In this document: piece by piece, positions 419 through 6,292 of the stretch
Numbering within the stretch: the stretch's first letter is position 1
How the letters are laid out: every line of letters begins with the position of its first letter
Assembly (NCBI GenBank): GCA_002692855.1
Contig: NZMJ01000012.1
Location: 32,709 to 96,708, forward strand
Reading direction: 5' to 3'
Source of the DNA: Maricaulis sp.
Lineage (GTDB): Bacteria; Pseudomonadota; Alphaproteobacteria; Caulobacterales; Maricaulaceae
DNA: 64,000 nucleotides
Position numbers and translations under genes: made by a program
The notes under the pieces: generated by a model
The model's input: only the letters and a program-made list of their open reading frames with translations
Databases searched by the model: none
Told to the model about the DNA's origin: nothing

Positions 419-1378
419 ATGTCCCAAACGCCGCTGCCTGACTATGCGCTCGAAGCGGAAGGTCTGCGCAAGACCTATGGCGGCTCGAAGAAGCGCCCCG
501 CCAAGGAGGCGCTCAAGGGGGTCGATCTGAAGATCGGCCGCGGCAAGATTTTCGGGCTTCTGGGGCCGAATGGCGCGGGCAAGTCGACCTTCATCAACAT
601 CTTCGCCGGACTGACCCGGAAGACGGCGGGCACGGCCCGCATCTGGGGCCGCGACATCGACACGGACGGGCGCAATGCCCGCGCCGCGATCGGCGTCGTG
701 CCGCAGGAAATCAACATGGACGTCTTCTTCACGCCCCATGAGATGCTGGAACTGATGGCCGGCTTCTACGGCGTGCCGAAGCGTGAGCGCCGCACGATGG
801 ACATTCTCCGCGCCGTCGGTCTGGAGGACAAGAAGAACGCCTATGTCCGCCAGTTGTCGGGCGGGATGAAGCGCCGGCTTCTGGTCGCCAAGGCGCTGGT
901 CCATACGCCGCCCGTCCTGGTGCTCGACGAGCCCACTGCCGGGGTCGATATCGAGCTCCGCCGCCAGCTCTGGGACTATGTCCGCGAGCTGCACGCGAAC
1001 GGCACCACCATCGTCCTGACGACACACTATCTCGAAGAGGCACAGGAGTTGTGCGACGACATCGCCATCATCAATGAGGGCCAGGTCGTCGCCTGCGAGC
1101 CGACCGTCTCGCTTCTCAAGCGTCTCGACACCAAGTCGCTGGTGATCGTCCCGGCCGAGCCGCTGACCGCAGTGCCGGACGCCTTGTCAGCCTATGACGC
1201 GAAAATCCGCGATACGGGCGAACTCGCGATCAGCTACAAGTTCGGCGAGGTCTCGGTCGCCAAGATCATCGAGGCCTTCCACGCCTCCGGCGGCCGCATC
1301 GGTGATCTGCGCACCGAAGAGCCGGACCTCGAGGATGTCTTCCTCGCCCTGACCTACCACCGGGGCGACGCGGCGTAA
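419..1378 (+). CDS. ABC-2 type transporter ATP-binding protein
   Basis: A 319-residue ATPase with every nucleotide-binding motif intact: Walker A GPNGAGKST (49-57), Q-loop Gln96, signature LSGGM (146-150), Walker B VLVLDEP (165-171) and switch His203 in TTHYLEEA. The sequence resembles the YadG/CcmA-like group of ABC-2 exporters. A C-terminal extension of about 90 residues follows the ATPase core. The ATG at 419 is preferred to an upstream start at 311, because the 36 residues between do not fit the family. No ABC-2 permease lies next to it: the following gene has two predicted helices and a charged tail. The permease must be encoded elsewhere, or the partner is unknown. Confidence 0.9.
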   Translation: MSQTPLPDYALEAEGLRKTYGGSKKRPAKEALKGVDLKIGRGKIFGLLGPNGAGKSTFINIFAGLTRKTAGTARIWGRDIDTDGRNARAAIGVVPQEINMDVFFTPHEMLELMAGFYGVPKRERRTMDILRAVGLEDKKNAYVRQLSGGMKRRLLVAKALVHTPPVLVLDEPTAGVDIELRRQLWDYVRELHANGTTIVLTTHYLEEAQELCDDIAIINEGQVVACEPTVSLLKRLDTKSLVIVPAEPLTAVPDALSAYDAKIRDTGELAISYKFGEVSVAKIIEAFHASGGRIGDLRTEEPDLEDVFLALTYHRGDAA

Positions 1379-1448: not shown

Positions 1449-1820
1449 ATGCTGGCGATTCGACGCTTCTTTTCCGCGCTACTGGCGATCGGGCTGTTCG
1501 TCTTTCTGGGCTATGTCTTTACCCTGTTCTTCGAACCGCAGGGCCAGGGCGGGTGGATCACCGCCGTCATTCTGGTCATCGGATCGGGGATTTTCAGCCT
1601 CATCGTCTATCGCTGGCTGGCCGTGCCGGGGCGCTCACGCCACCGCGCGCCGGACCCGCATGATGACGGGGCCGGGCTGGGTCTCGGCCTGCTGGGCTCG
1701 TCTGCGGCGAACCGGAGACGCGACGATATCGATGGCGATGATTTCGGTGGCGGCCGCCGCAGCCCGCATGGCGGCGATGGGGATGCAGACGCTGACGACG
1801 ATCCGTCTGGATTGCACTAG
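1449..1820 (+). CDS. small two-helix membrane protein with Gly/Asp-rich tail
   Basis: A 123-residue protein not recognised as a named family. Two hydrophobic segments (about residues 8-28 and 36-55) predict a hairpin inner-membrane protein. They are followed by a low-complexity cytosolic or periplasmic tail rich in Gly, Asp and Arg (RRRDDIDGDDFGGGRR and similar). GGGGAC lies upstream of the ATG. It sits 70 bp after the ABC ATPase on the same strand and could be co-transcribed with it, but it is far too small to be a normal ABC-2 permease. The acidic tail might bind metal or nucleic acid; that is speculation. Confidence 0.6.
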   Translation: MLAIRRFFSALLAIGLFVFLGYVFTLFFEPQGQGGWITAVILVIGSGIFSLIVYRWLAVPGRSRHRAPDPHDDGAGLGLGLLGSSAANRRRDDIDGDDFGGGRRSPHGGDGDADADDDPSGLH

Positions 1821-1888: not shown

Positions 1889-3877
1889 CTAGCCCTCGGT
1901 CACCGGGTCGAAACGCGTCAGCGCATCCGGCCCGTCCATCACCGCGCGTAGCTGTCCCACATAGGTTTCGTCATCGGCATAGGGGCTGATCTCGCCGACC
2001 AGTGCCGGACCGGTGATCGGCGCGCCCGCAGCGCGCAGGGCCGCCCGCTCGGCGCGGAAGCCTGCAAAGGCCGGGTGCGAATTGAGATAGCTGACATAGT
2101 CCTCTGCCGAGGCCGCCAGGCTTTCAAATCCGCCATCGCCGGGGAAGCGGCCGAACAGGACGTTGCGTTCGCGCGCCGCTTCGCTGCTGCCCCAGCCTGT
2201 CGCAAGGACGGCCTGCGAGATGGCCAGCGAGGGCGGGACGATGTCGGCGCGGGCCAGCAGGTCATCCAGATCGCCATAGGCCCCCCCGTATTTGCGCGCC
2301 AGCCGGTCACGTTCAGCCTGCTGGGAGAGGTCGAGACGCGTCCCGTTCGCTTCCAGACCGGCGAACCGTTCCAGCGTCGCACGGTCACGCAGCACGTGCT
2401 CGTTCTCCGAGGCGATCAGGCTGGCAACGATGCGGGCGAACAGCCGCCGCCGCTCCTCCATGTCCAATTCCATCCAGTCAGCGGGCAGAGTGCCGAGCCG
2501 GACACCGCCCGAGGACGGCGACGACGGCGGCGCGACCATCTCGCGCAGCTCGGCCACGGTCGGCGCGCTGAAGACCGGCCCCTGCCTGTCGATCAGTCCC
2601 GCAGCGATCGACGCGGCAAACGAGGCACCGGCGAAGCCCACCGTGACCGCGCCGATGGCGGCCATGTCGCGCCAGCCCTTTCGTCCCTCGATGGGCGGGG
2701 CGATGCGCGCCAGCCGGGATACGGGTCCGGCGGTCCAGCCCTGGATCACCAGCGACGCGATCACCACGGCAAAGGCGGTCGAAAAATAGAGATTGGCATT
2801 CTCCACCCCGAGCAGGACCGGAAAACCGCCGAGGAAGATCGGCACCGCCCCGCGCAGCCCCATCCAGGCGATGAAGGCGCGCTCATTGGGTCTGAATTTC
2901 TCGGGCAGCAGGCAGACCAGCACGGCCAGCGGGCGGGCGACAAGGATCAGCACCAGCGCCACGCCGAGCGCCGGAACGGCCACGGCCAGCGCGTGGCTCG
3001 GCGTCACCAGCAGTCCGAGCATCAGGAAGAGACCGATCTGCGACAGCCAGGCGACCCCGTCGGAAAAGCGCGCGGTCGCCTCGGCCGCGCGCCGCTTGGG
3101 CGCAGAACGCAGGGCCACGCCCGCCAGATAGGCCGCCAGGAATCCCGACGCACCGATCGACTGGGCCAGCGCGAACAGGAATACCGCGGATGCGGCGGCA
3201 AAGATGGGATAAAGCCCCAGCGGCAGGCCCATGCGGCGCTCGGCGACCGCGATAGCGCGTCCGCCGAACCAGCCGATCAGCGCACCGGCGATCAGCGACC
3301 AGACAATGCCGATGGCAAACAGCCACGGGCTCGGCGCTTCACCGGCCCCCAGCCAGGTCACCAATGCCGTCACCATGATGACCGCCATCGGATCATTGAA
3401 GCCCGATTCCGCCTCGAGCGTGGTGGCGACGCGCGGGCGGGCCTTCAACTCACGGCCCGCAATCAGCATCAGGACGGCGGCGGCATCGGTCGAGGACACG
3501 ATCGCCCCCATCAGCAGGCTTTCAATCCACCCGAGGCCGAAGAGGTAGTGGGCGCCGGCCGCCGTGATCCCGGCCGTAATCAGCACGCCGGCGGTTGCCA
3601 GGGTCAGCGAGGGGCGCAGCACGCCGCGCAAGCGACGCAGGCTGGTTCCCAATCCCCCATCGAACAGGATCAGCGCCAGTGCCAGCGATCCGAAGCCATA
3701 GGCCAGGCCGTAGTCATTGAAGAAGATCTGGCCCGGACCCTCTTCGCCCGCCAGCATGCCGATGCCGAGAAACATCAACAGCAGCGGCGCGCCGGCCTGC
3801 CGCAACAGGGCGGCGCCAGCCACCGCCAGCAGGATCAGGCTGGTCGAAACCAGAAGCAGAATGTGGGCGGCATCCAT
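1889..3877 (-). CDS. CPA1-type K+/H+ antiporter fused to a degenerate Bax-like glucosaminidase domain
   Basis: A 662-residue protein in two parts. Residues 1-390 are a many-helix CvrA/NhaP2-like cation:proton antiporter, with the conserved SSTDAAA (128-134) and ESGFNDP (157-163) motifs. Instead of the usual cytosolic TrkA-C/CorC-type tail there is an extra helix (about 405-428). A soluble domain (about 465-650) follows whose LPADW, ADIVPPSLAISQA, GWGSS, NVLFG and LNSHPAF blocks match Bax/FlgJ-type glucosaminidases (GH73-like). The catalytic Glu of the usual QAALESGWG motif is replaced: here it reads QAVLATGWG, with Ala559 in the Glu slot. The extra helix would put this domain in the periplasm. 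Start ATG 3877 has AGGGAAA upstream; a longer frame would run into the tRNA. Both domain identifications are by motif; the fusion is in one uninterrupted frame. Confidence 0.85.
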   Translation of the reverse strand: MDAAHILLLVSTSLILLAVAGAALLRQAGAPLLLMFLGIGMLAGEEGPGQIFFNDYGLAYGFGSLALALILFDGGLGTSLRRLRGVLRPSLTLATAGVLITAGITAAGAHYLFGLGWIESLLMGAIVSSTDAAAVLMLIAGRELKARPRVATTLEAESGFNDPMAVIMVTALVTWLGAGEAPSPWLFAIGIVWSLIAGALIGWFGGRAIAVAERRMGLPLGLYPIFAAASAVFLFALAQSIGASGFLAAYLAGVALRSAPKRRAAEATARFSDGVAWLSQIGLFLMLGLLVTPSHALAVAVPALGVALVLILVARPLAVLVCLLPEKFRPNERAFIAWMGLRGAVPIFLGGFPVLLGVENANLYFSTAFAVVIASLVIQGWTAGPVSRLARIAPPIEGRKGWRDMAAIGAVTVGFAGASFAASIAAGLIDRQGPVFSAPTVAELREMVAPPSSPSSGGVRLGTLPADWMELDMEERRRLFARIVASLIASENEHVLRDRATLERFAGLEANGTRLDLSQQAERDRLARKYGGAYGDLDDLLARADIVPPSLAISQAVLATGWGSSEAARERNVLFGRFPGDGGFESLAASAEDYVSYLNSHPAFAGFRAERAALRAAGAPITGPALVGEISPYADDETYVGQLRAVMDGPDALTRFDPVTEG

Positions 3878-3980: not shown

Positions 3981-4057
3981 GCACCCATAGCTCAGCTGGA
4001 TAGAGCGCTGCCCTCCGAAGGCAGAGGTCAGAGGTTCGAATCCTCTTGGGTGCGCCA
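3981..4057 (+). tRNA. tRNA-Arg (anticodon CCG)
   Basis: Complete cloverleaf with the CCA encoded. Acceptor GCACCCA (3981-3987) pairs with TGGGTGC (4047-4053), followed by discriminator G and CCA. The D-loop holds AGCTCAGCTGGATAGAGC. The anticodon stem CTGCC/GGCAG encloses CTCCGAA, anticodon CCG, reading CGG. The T-arm is GGTTCGAATCC. It lies between the antiporter gene and DUF2200. No integrated element is seen behind it. Confidence 0.97.
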
Positions 4058-4205: not shown

Positions 4206-4565
4206 TCAGTCTTTCGGCACCCGCAATATCTTCTCCATCGCCTTGCCCTTGGCGAGTTCGTCGATCAGCTTGTCGAGATAGCGGATCTCGCGCATCAGCT
4301 TGTCTTCGACCTCTTCGACGCGCACGCCGCACACTACGCCCTTGATGAGCGCCCGGTCGGGATTGAGCCGGGGTGCGTCGTCAAAAAAGGCTCGAAAATC
4401 GGACTTGTCGGCGAGCACCCTCTTCAACGCGGCATCATCATGGCCCGTGAGCCAGTGGATGATCTCATCGACGTCGGCCTTGGTTCGCCCCTTCTTTTCG
4501 GCCTTCGCAACGTAATGCGGATAAACGCTCGCAAAGCTCATCTTGAAGATGCGGTGTTCGGCCAT
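4206..4565 (-). CDS. DUF2200 domain-containing protein
   Basis: A 119-residue soluble protein starting [19 protein letters not shown]. It has the WLTGHD core and the C-terminal [20 protein letters not shown] block characteristic of the DUF2200 family, which has no established function. The length equals the usual family size, so it looks complete. ATG 4565 is chosen because that is where family similarity begins. It is divergent from the sensor kinase, with about 110 bp between the starts. It is followed by roughly 150 bp up to the tRNA-Arg. Confidence 0.85.
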
Positions 4566-4673: not shown

Positions 4674-5762
4674 ATGAAAGCTGCTGTCCACCCACGACAA
4701 GCGGATCGTCTCGCGGCGCTGCGCCGCTACGACATTCTCGACACGCCGCGCGAAGCGGAGTTTGACGATATCGTCGCCCTGGCGTCGACGATTTGCGACG
4801 CACCGATCTCCGTCGTCAACCTGATCGACGAGCACCGCCAGTGGTTCAAGGCCGAGGTCGGGCTGGGCGTGCGCGAGACGCCGCTCGAAACCTCGATCTG
4901 CTCGCACGTCATCCTGGAAAACGACTTCGTCGAAATTCCCGATACGCTCGCCGATGCCCGGATGGCGGACAACCCGTTATGCCTCGCACCAGAGGACGGG
5001 TTGCGCTTCTACGCAGGCGCCTTGCTGAAGACGTCGGACGGCATGCCGATCGGGACGCTGTGCGTGCTCGACACGAAGCCGCGAAATCTGACTGACCTTC
5101 AGCGCGAAACCGTCCGGGTACTGGCCCGGCAGGTGATGAAGCAACTCGAACTTCGCCTGGCACTCCGCCAGCTCGACACCTTGCGCCGGGAGACTGACCA
5201 CCGGGTCAAGAACTCGCTGCAAATGATCGCCTCGCTGGTCAGTATCGGCCGCTCCGGCGGCGAAGGCGCGGCCGATGCCGCGCTGGAGCGGATCGAAAGC
5301 CGCATCCGCGCCGCCTCGCTGATCCACGAGCAGATCCAGAAGTCCAGCACCAGCGGCGACGTCGATATTGCCCGATTGCTGACCGATCTGGGCCGGCTGC
5401 TTCAGGACATGTCGCCGGACGGGATCGCGATCGAGGTCAAGGCAGACAGCGTCGACATTTCACCCGACCAGGCCACCGCCATTGCGACCCTGATCAACGA
5501 GTTCGCGGCCAATTCCTTCAAGCACGCCTTCACGGGTGTCTCGCAAGGGTGCATCACCCTCACCGCATCGTCGAAGGACGGTGCGATTGAACTGGAGTGC
5601 AGTGACGATGGCCGGGGCTGGGGCGAGGATGGACCGAAGGGCGGGCTGGGCTACCAGATCATGCAGGCGTCCGCCGAAAAGGCCGGCGGGAAGATCGAGC
5701 TGATCCCCCTCCAGACCGGATCGGCGTTGAGGCTGGTGTTCAAACCGGAACAGGCGGCCTAA
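4674..5762 (+). CDS. GAF-domain sensor histidine kinase, HWE/HisKA_2 type
   Basis: A 362-residue cytosolic kinase. An N-terminal GAF domain (about 20-160) opens with the common [15 protein letters not shown] motif. The dimerisation/phosphotransfer segment has DHRVKNSLQ with His176 as the likely phospho-acceptor, followed by a HATPase domain with N-box [12 protein letters not shown] (275-286) and DDGRGW (311-316). HWE/HisKA_2 kinases often feed PhyR-type general stress or light/redox responses in alphaproteobacteria. No response regulator is adjacent, so its partner is unknown. No transmembrane helices are seen. ATG 4674 follows an AAGG site. The stop overlaps the convergent sodC stop by 4 nt. 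Confidence 0.88.
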
Positions 5763-6292
5763 CCGGCCACGATCACACCGCAGGCAATCCGGTCCCCGGC
5801 ATCGCCGGAGGGCTGGCTCCGGTAATCATCAGGGCCCGAATGCACCAAGATGGCAGCGCCGTCGCCATCCATCAGTGCGCCATTCTCGTCGAGTGAAACG
5901 CGGGTGTTGAAGGTTTCGACCGTCAGTTCGCCGGTCTCGGGGACATGGATGTTCTCCAGGTCACCGAGATGCGGCCCGCCCGGCACCAGGAAGCCGTGCG
6001 CCTGTCCATCCGGGTCCGCGAGGTGACCGCCTGCGGCATCGAAATCCGGTTCGCAGGCGCCGGTCTGGTGGATGTGAAAACCATGCGTGCCCTGCGGCAA
6101 TCCTGTCAGATGGGCCTCGATCAGCACCCCGCTCGGTGTTTCAGTCAGCATGACCTCCCCCGCCGGCGTCCCGTCGGCCAGCTGAAGGCGGGCATGCGCC
6201 GTGGCGGGTTCCTGATCGTCGGCGAAGGCATCCATGCCAGGGGACAGTGTCATCGCTGTGGCGGCAACGACCATGGCGGCAAAACGGGACAT
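5759..6292 (-). CDS. sodC: periplasmic Cu/Zn superoxide dismutase
   Basis: A 177-residue precursor with a signal peptide of about 24 residues (cleavage after DAFA). It has all metal ligands: His73 and His75 (THGFHIHQ), bridging His90 (GGHLADP), His99, His108, Asp111 (GPHLGD) and His151 (LVHSGPDDY). Cys80 and Cys171 can form the conserved disulfide. The enzyme dismutates superoxide in the periplasm. The stop codon overlaps the convergent kinase stop (CTAA, 5759-5762). No unusual residue was noticed. Confidence 0.95.
   Translation of the reverse strand: MSRFAAMVVAATAMTLSPGMDAFADDQEPATAHARLQLADGTPAGEVMLTETPSGVLIEAHLTGLPQGTHGFHIHQTGACEPDFDAAGGHLADPDGQAHGFLVPGGPHLGDLENIHVPETGELTVETFNTRVSLDENGALMDGDGAAILVHSGPDDYRSQPSGDAGDRIACGVIVAG

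Follow-up and report, generated by a model that had tools for sequence, protein, structure and literature searches.

The window analysed here, a stretch of 64,000 nucleotides from Maricaulis sp. (contig NZMJ01000012.1), contains a gene in which a CPA1-type K+/H+ antiporter of the CvrA/YcgO group is joined, in a single chain, to an additional helix and a domain of the Bax/GH73 type that has lost its catalytic glutamate. The domain is predicted to lie in the periplasm and to be unable to cut peptidoglycan, and it is tentatively proposed, with a confidence that stops a little short of even, that it binds the glycan of the wall and thereby regulates antiport.

The minus-strand frame at 1889-3877 runs without interruption along its 662 amino acids, and the matches to the Pfam and NCBIfam models place a K+/H+ antiporter at residues 1-395 and a Glucosaminidase/Bax domain at residues 475-648. 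This single-frame fusion, which had been reported in the initial annotation, is present in 30 genomes and 26 database proteins, a recurrence that rules out an assembly artefact or a frameshift joining two genes, and confirms that the architecture is real. The 30 genome loci and the 26 database proteins, which are overlapping sets, make up the 56 fused rows referred to below, with 49 distinct domain sequences and 44 representatives under 90% identity. The starts of 13 homologues coincide with the start at position 3877 or lie up to 16 residues before it, and an in-frame ATG further upstream, at 3988, was rejected as the start, given that it falls within a tRNA-Arg gene (3981-4057).

The loss of the catalytic residue is the feature that distinguishes the C-terminal domain. 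This domain exceeds the cut-off of the Pfam model PF01832 (Glucosaminidase; 37.4 vs. 30.2 bits), does not reach that of the NCBIfam “protein bax” equivalog, NF007681 (62 vs. 193 bits), and has the predicted fold of GH73, a family in which the solved structures include AtlA (7qfu), Auto (3fi7), and FlgJ (5dn5, 2zyc, and the E185A mutant, 3k3t). The GH73 motif Q-A-A-L-E-S/T-G-W-G reads QAVLATGWG in the window protein, where residue 559 is indeed Ala at the site of the catalytic Glu, as first noted. The possibility that the loss is private to the window genome is ruled out by its presence in all 56 fused rows, with Ala in 53, Thr in two, and Ser in one (42/1/1 in the 44 representatives). The motif is exactly QAALATGWG in 20 of these rows, which is that of 3k3t, titled as the E185A mutant of FlgJ, while the FlgJ of 2zyc has QAALETGWG. 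The solved GH73 proteins are hydrolases, and Ala occupies the catalytic site only in this engineered mutant.

The catalytic Glu is the single residue identical among the structures compared in one study, in which its replacement by Ala (E138A) inactivates the enzyme AtlE (excerpt of PMC5330529). The loss of cutting by the fused domain, as put forward in the initial annotation, is thus well supported by the comparison of residues. The complex of AtlE E138A with N-acetylglucosamine-N-acetylmuramic acid (NAG-NAM) has also been solved (excerpt of PMC5330529), which indicates that the loss of the Glu can leave binding, and the retention of glycan binding by the fused domain is plausible, with Q555, G561, W562, G563, G576, and R608 being conserved in 56 of the 56 fused rows. 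Given that the catalytic Glu is missing in every one of these rows, the domain is classed as GH73-like in its fold, and not as a GH73 enzyme.

The stand-alone Bax/GH73 proteins of the Alphaproteobacteria contain the same domain, matching the fusion from the LP-x-D stretch onwards, and are 31-41% identical to the window domain in an alignment (A5) of nine fused and 26 of 30 stand-alone rows, the near-duplicates L058, L063, L067, and L079 being excluded. They differ from the fusion in two respects, since they have no transporter fused to them and retain the catalytic Glu (ESGWG) in all 31 relatives that were read (29 of 29 loci, together with L080 and L081), a minority of the stand-alone copies, taken from the better-scoring matches in 170 genomes with a match out of the 385 of the class.

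The antiporter half also matches its family. The membrane domain exceeds the cut-off of the potassium/proton antiporter model NF003715 (476.9 vs. 309 bits), and does not reach that of the sister model NF003714 (364.4 vs. 471 bits). Residues D131, E155, E157, N161, D162, and R342 are invariant in the 56 fused rows, and D131, E155, E157, and D162 correspond to the acidic vestibule residues D133, E155, E157, and D162 of YcgO of Escherichia coli (excerpt of PMC11808508). To judge by these residues, the exchange site is intact, and K+/H+ exchange is predicted. The membrane domain of approximately 390 residues is also shared with the CvrA/YcgO/NhaP2-type CPA1 antiporters, although the remainder of the chain is not. 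In YcgO, a cytoplasmic C-terminal region, formed by RCK and CorC, regulates the antiporter, and unphosphorylated PtsN is thought to inhibit it via CorC (excerpt of PMC11808508); the protein has been linked to cell volume regulation under low osmolarity (excerpt of PMC7349511). The fusion has, instead, a 14th helix and the GH73-type domain. A Pfam scan (E up to 10) returned no match to TrkA_C or CorC_HlyC in the fused protein, with the Glucosaminidase domain standing in their place, so the initial view that the cytosolic regulatory region had been replaced holds. The two unfused antiporter relatives scanned yielded weak matches, below the Pfam cut-off, to CorC (both) and TrkA_C (one).

The placement of the domain depends on the additional helix. 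YcgO has 13 helices, with its N-terminus outside and its C-terminus inside the cell, as supported by cysteine accessibility (excerpt of PMC11808508). A further hydrophobic segment is found within 75 residues of the antiporter in all 30 genome fusions (19-mer, Kyte-Doolittle mean 1.36-2.27), and the full-length structure model has a helix at residues 401-425. One extra helix, when added to the topology of YcgO, places the fused domain on the periplasmic side, where it is predicted to face the wall, in agreement with the helix and the location first suggested for it. The spacing from QGWT379 to P465 is 78-90 residues in the 56 rows. A hydrophobic segment also precedes the domain in 28 of the 30 stand-alone relatives, which is consistent with an exported domain, and it is conceivable, as an idea, that helix 14 is the former membrane anchor of a Bax protein.

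The fusion was found in 20 of the 137 genomes of the GTDB family of the window, where two further weak matches are not fusions, and in a sample of 398 genomes of the order, all 29 that match the domain profile carry it (19 in this family and 10 in two other family groups). The named relatives with the fusion, bacteria of a marine type, include Glycocaulis, Oceanicaulis, Marinicauda, Alkalicaulis, and Euryhalocaulis, which NCBI assigns to the Maricaulales, the order in which the initial annotation had suggested looking for it, and also Parvularcula, of the Parvularculales. The domains of the Parvularcula-type fusions P0020 (20.1 bits) and P0026 (26.3 bits) fall below the Pfam cut-off of 30.2, and an annotation based on Pfam alone would therefore miss the fusion there.

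In a domain tree of 30 fused and 30 stand-alone rows, the fused rows form one side of a single branch (support 100/100), and the same split was obtained in quick trees of the antiporter with 30 fused and 32, then 33 unfused rows (Shimodaira-Hasegawa-like approximate likelihood ratio test, 100). These trees included 32 of the 34 unfused loci, then 33 with the addition of L014, while L141 fell outside the frame filter both times; long rows were flagged for L093 and, in the second tree, for L014 as well. The simplest reading of these trees would be one fusion, with the Glu being lost before the families split, and a transfer of the fusion between families is conceivable. A search of the window genome for a stand-alone PF01832 paralogue matched the fused copy only, and nine of 60 genomes, including that of the window, matched this model, always inside the fused gene, although more diverged copies would escape the profile. 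These 60 genomes thus seem to hold no catalytic copy detectable by PF01832.

Other candidates for a fusion were rejected. The only other frame of over 600 residues among the matches listed for the class, G094 (750 amino acids), carries a long Pro-rich N-terminal part, retains the Glu, and contains no antiporter. Of the two weak matches in the GTDB family of the window, L102, from a genome (G508) listed with 5% contamination, is a separate protein of small size, glucosaminidase-like and with the Glu in place (LESGAG), and L103 is unrelated. A scan of the contigs with a pattern of Ala/Thr at position 559 is blind to Glu-bearing fusions, and was not used for that question, while the protein searches rank by shared words and score, in part, only the top candidates, so that distant Glu-bearing fusions could escape them. 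The assembly of the window (4.07 Mb, 5.89% contamination) is larger than the seven other genomes of the genus (2.2-2.8 Mb), and may be a mixed bin.

The ratio of nonsynonymous to synonymous substitution rates (dN/dS) was obtained for six genomes of one genus group, in which 10 of the 15 pairs are close, being drawn from the 14 pairs of lowest dS listed. In these ten pairs, the ratio was 0.047-0.117 for the antiporter, 0.066-0.380 for the linker with helix 14, and 0.094-0.332 for the GH73-type domain, with 0 to 0.524 in the short stretch at 441-464. Such low values argue against a decaying relic. In the close pairs, selection maintains the domain, although under a weaker constraint than the transporter.

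A tentative mechanism can be outlined from these parts. The 13-helix antiporter would end in the cytosol, as YcgO does, and helix 14 would return the chain to the outside, where the GH73-type domain might rest on or in the peptidoglycan. Occupancy by glycan, or the distance to the wall, may then shift helix 14 against helix 13 and change the rate of antiport, with control derived from the wall replacing the cytosolic control of the RCK/CorC type, and K+ efflux would become tied to the state of the wall or turgor. A bolder claim is that the dead hydrolase directly converts the tension of the wall, or its own occupancy by glycan, into a level of K+ efflux, as a turgor sensor and effector in a single protein, created when one fusion displaced the RCK/CorC region; this is more doubtful, and the wall or turgor sensor of the initial annotation is likewise retained as a hypothesis.

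Among systems known to work, the closest is the flagellar stator MotAB/PomAB, a membrane complex that conducts ions and binds the wall through a periplasmic domain, and in which the plug and linker regulate ion conductance (excerpt of PMC9093738). MotB, which bears an OmpA-like domain, forms a subunit of its own (excerpt of PMC3080404), whereas the fusion is one chain with a GH73-type domain, in which any coupling is putative. A Pfam scan (E up to 10) returned no match to an OmpA-type domain in the fused protein. In the pair SagB-SpdC, the likeness lies in the complex of a GH73 protein with a membrane protein, as stated in the title of the PDB entry, although these are two proteins rather than one chain. 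SagB, moreover, is enzymatically active, and SpdC is not known to be an antiporter.

A number of observations weigh against this proposal. The hydrophobicity measure is not, by itself, a clean indicator of helix 14, as five of the 30 unfused relatives also reach 1.3 within the whole of their longer C-terminal region (best 1.63), and the full-length model is moderate, with a predicted local distance difference test (pLDDT) score of 81.8, a predicted template modelling score of 0.72, and pLDDT values below 50 at residues 427-430 and 452-456. Part of the groove region is changed in the fusions, given that S634 and E635 are each present in 23 of 26 stand-alone rows, and in none and one, respectively, of nine fused rows. 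The substrate lobe also tends to be shorter, at 8-21 residues in the nine fused rows vs. 14-34 in the 26 stand-alone rows, which could reduce the grip on the glycan; these lengths overlap, and the shortening was dropped as proof of inactivity. In each of the ten close pairs, the domain has diverged more quickly than the antiporter, and in the four more distant pairs listed (51-69% identical), the dN/dS ratio reaches 0.46-0.64 in the domain, 0.29-0.73 in the antiporter, and 0.62-1.04 in the linker, although these ratios are unreliable, given that dS is barely higher there (0.64-0.66), probably being capped by the codon bias of the G+C-rich genomes. The spread of the fusion is patchy, with only two of the eight genomes of the window's own genus carrying it.

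Other roles may also be considered for the domain. All of the sequence evidence for a wall-binding domain that does not cut would fit equally well with a plain anchor, which holds the antiporter at a particular site of the envelope, such as the stalk, septum, or pole, without affecting the rate of transport, and a linker modelled in part with low confidence could be too flexible to transmit force. Since the cytosolic regulatory region is absent, however, no part of the chain other than the new domain is a candidate regulator, a point which is suggestive only, and such an anchor is considered unlikely, if deserving of attention. The pseudo-enzyme might, alternatively, bind another protein in place of glycan, a hydrolase or synthase of the wall, for example, with the signal passing from the antiporter to the metabolism of the wall. 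This appears to be improbable, as the groove motif is conserved (Q555, G561-W562-G563, G576, and R608), a scan of five neighbouring genes yielded no Pfam match related to the wall, and the ABC ATPase found near the fusion in seven of the ten named loci (6-kb flanks) is seen in none of the ten short-flank loci.

The two remaining alternatives question the loss of cutting or the presence of any function at all. The predicted fold is that of GH73, which would allow for cutting by means of another acid. From residue 379 to the end, however, the only acid to reach 90% conservation in the 56 rows is D/E498, on the long helix with which the domain begins at its N-terminal side, and in AtlE, in addition to the inactivation by the Glu-to-Ala change, the mutation of neighbouring acids revealed no residue that assists catalysis (excerpt of PMC5330529), leaving this explanation with hardly any probability. 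A decaying, functionless passenger, left behind by one fusion, would be in keeping with the faster evolution of the domain and the low scores of some Parvularcula-type copies (P0020, for example), and yet it is very improbable, considering the low dN/dS of the domain in the close pairs and the spacing from P465 to Q555, which is 90-91 residues in all 56 rows. In a whole-protein search of 60 genomes, moreover, the nine best matches (E < 1e-150) were all of full length, and the short antiporters L011, L013, and L014 (401-414 amino acids) group with the unfused rows in the tree, where L014 has a long branch. The domain-profile searches (A3) target the domain itself, and truncated copies are invisible to them.

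No description of an antiporter-GH73 architecture was found among the hits listed by full-text searches of the open-licence papers of PubMed Central. Where the fused proteins are named, the terms used are “potassium/proton antiporter” and “cell volume regulation protein” A/CvrA, with no mention of the second domain. The novelty lies in a CPA1 antiporter that bears a new module, which is probably regulatory. To our knowledge, the way in which bacteria sense the state of the wall or turgor and adjust their K+ is an open question, and the presence of an antiporter and a non-cutting wall-type domain in one chain, in two NCBI orders, makes a link between the wall and K+ testable. The fusion is also a clear example, from nature, of a hydrolase fold with the very substitution that is introduced by crystallographers in order to inactivate the enzyme.

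Table 1. Parts of the fused gene, in coordinates of the window.
Feature	Position	Strand	Basis
Whole fused gene, 662 amino acids and stop	1889..3877	-	Architecture shared by 30 genomes
CPA1 K+/H+ antiporter membrane domain, residues 1-390	2708..3877	-	Profile matches; conserved residues
Short loop, residues 391-400, predicted cytosolic	2678..2707	-	Structure model and inference from YcgO topology
Additional helix (residues 401-425), predicted to be transmembrane helix 14	2603..2677	-	Model; hydrophobic 19-mer
Linker, residues 426-464, predicted periplasmic, in part with low model confidence	2486..2602	-	Model; spacing
Bax/GH73-type domain (residues 465-656), lacking the catalytic Glu	1910..2485	-	Profiles; predicted fold
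Ala559 codon (catalytic Glu site of GH73 enzymes)	2201..2203	-	Alignment of fused rows

The genes upstream of the fusion encode a DUF2200 protein (4206-4562, minus strand), a histidine kinase of the HisKA_2/HWE type with a GAF domain (4674-5762, plus strand), and a Cu/Zn superoxide dismutase (5759-6292, minus strand), none of which recurred in a search of 20 related loci. Downstream, and convergent with the fusion, lies the ABC ATPase (419-1378, plus strand). The space between the two is occupied by a gene (1449-1820, plus strand) for a protein of 123 amino acids with no Pfam match, for which a single weak relative was detected, in the corresponding position of locus L041.
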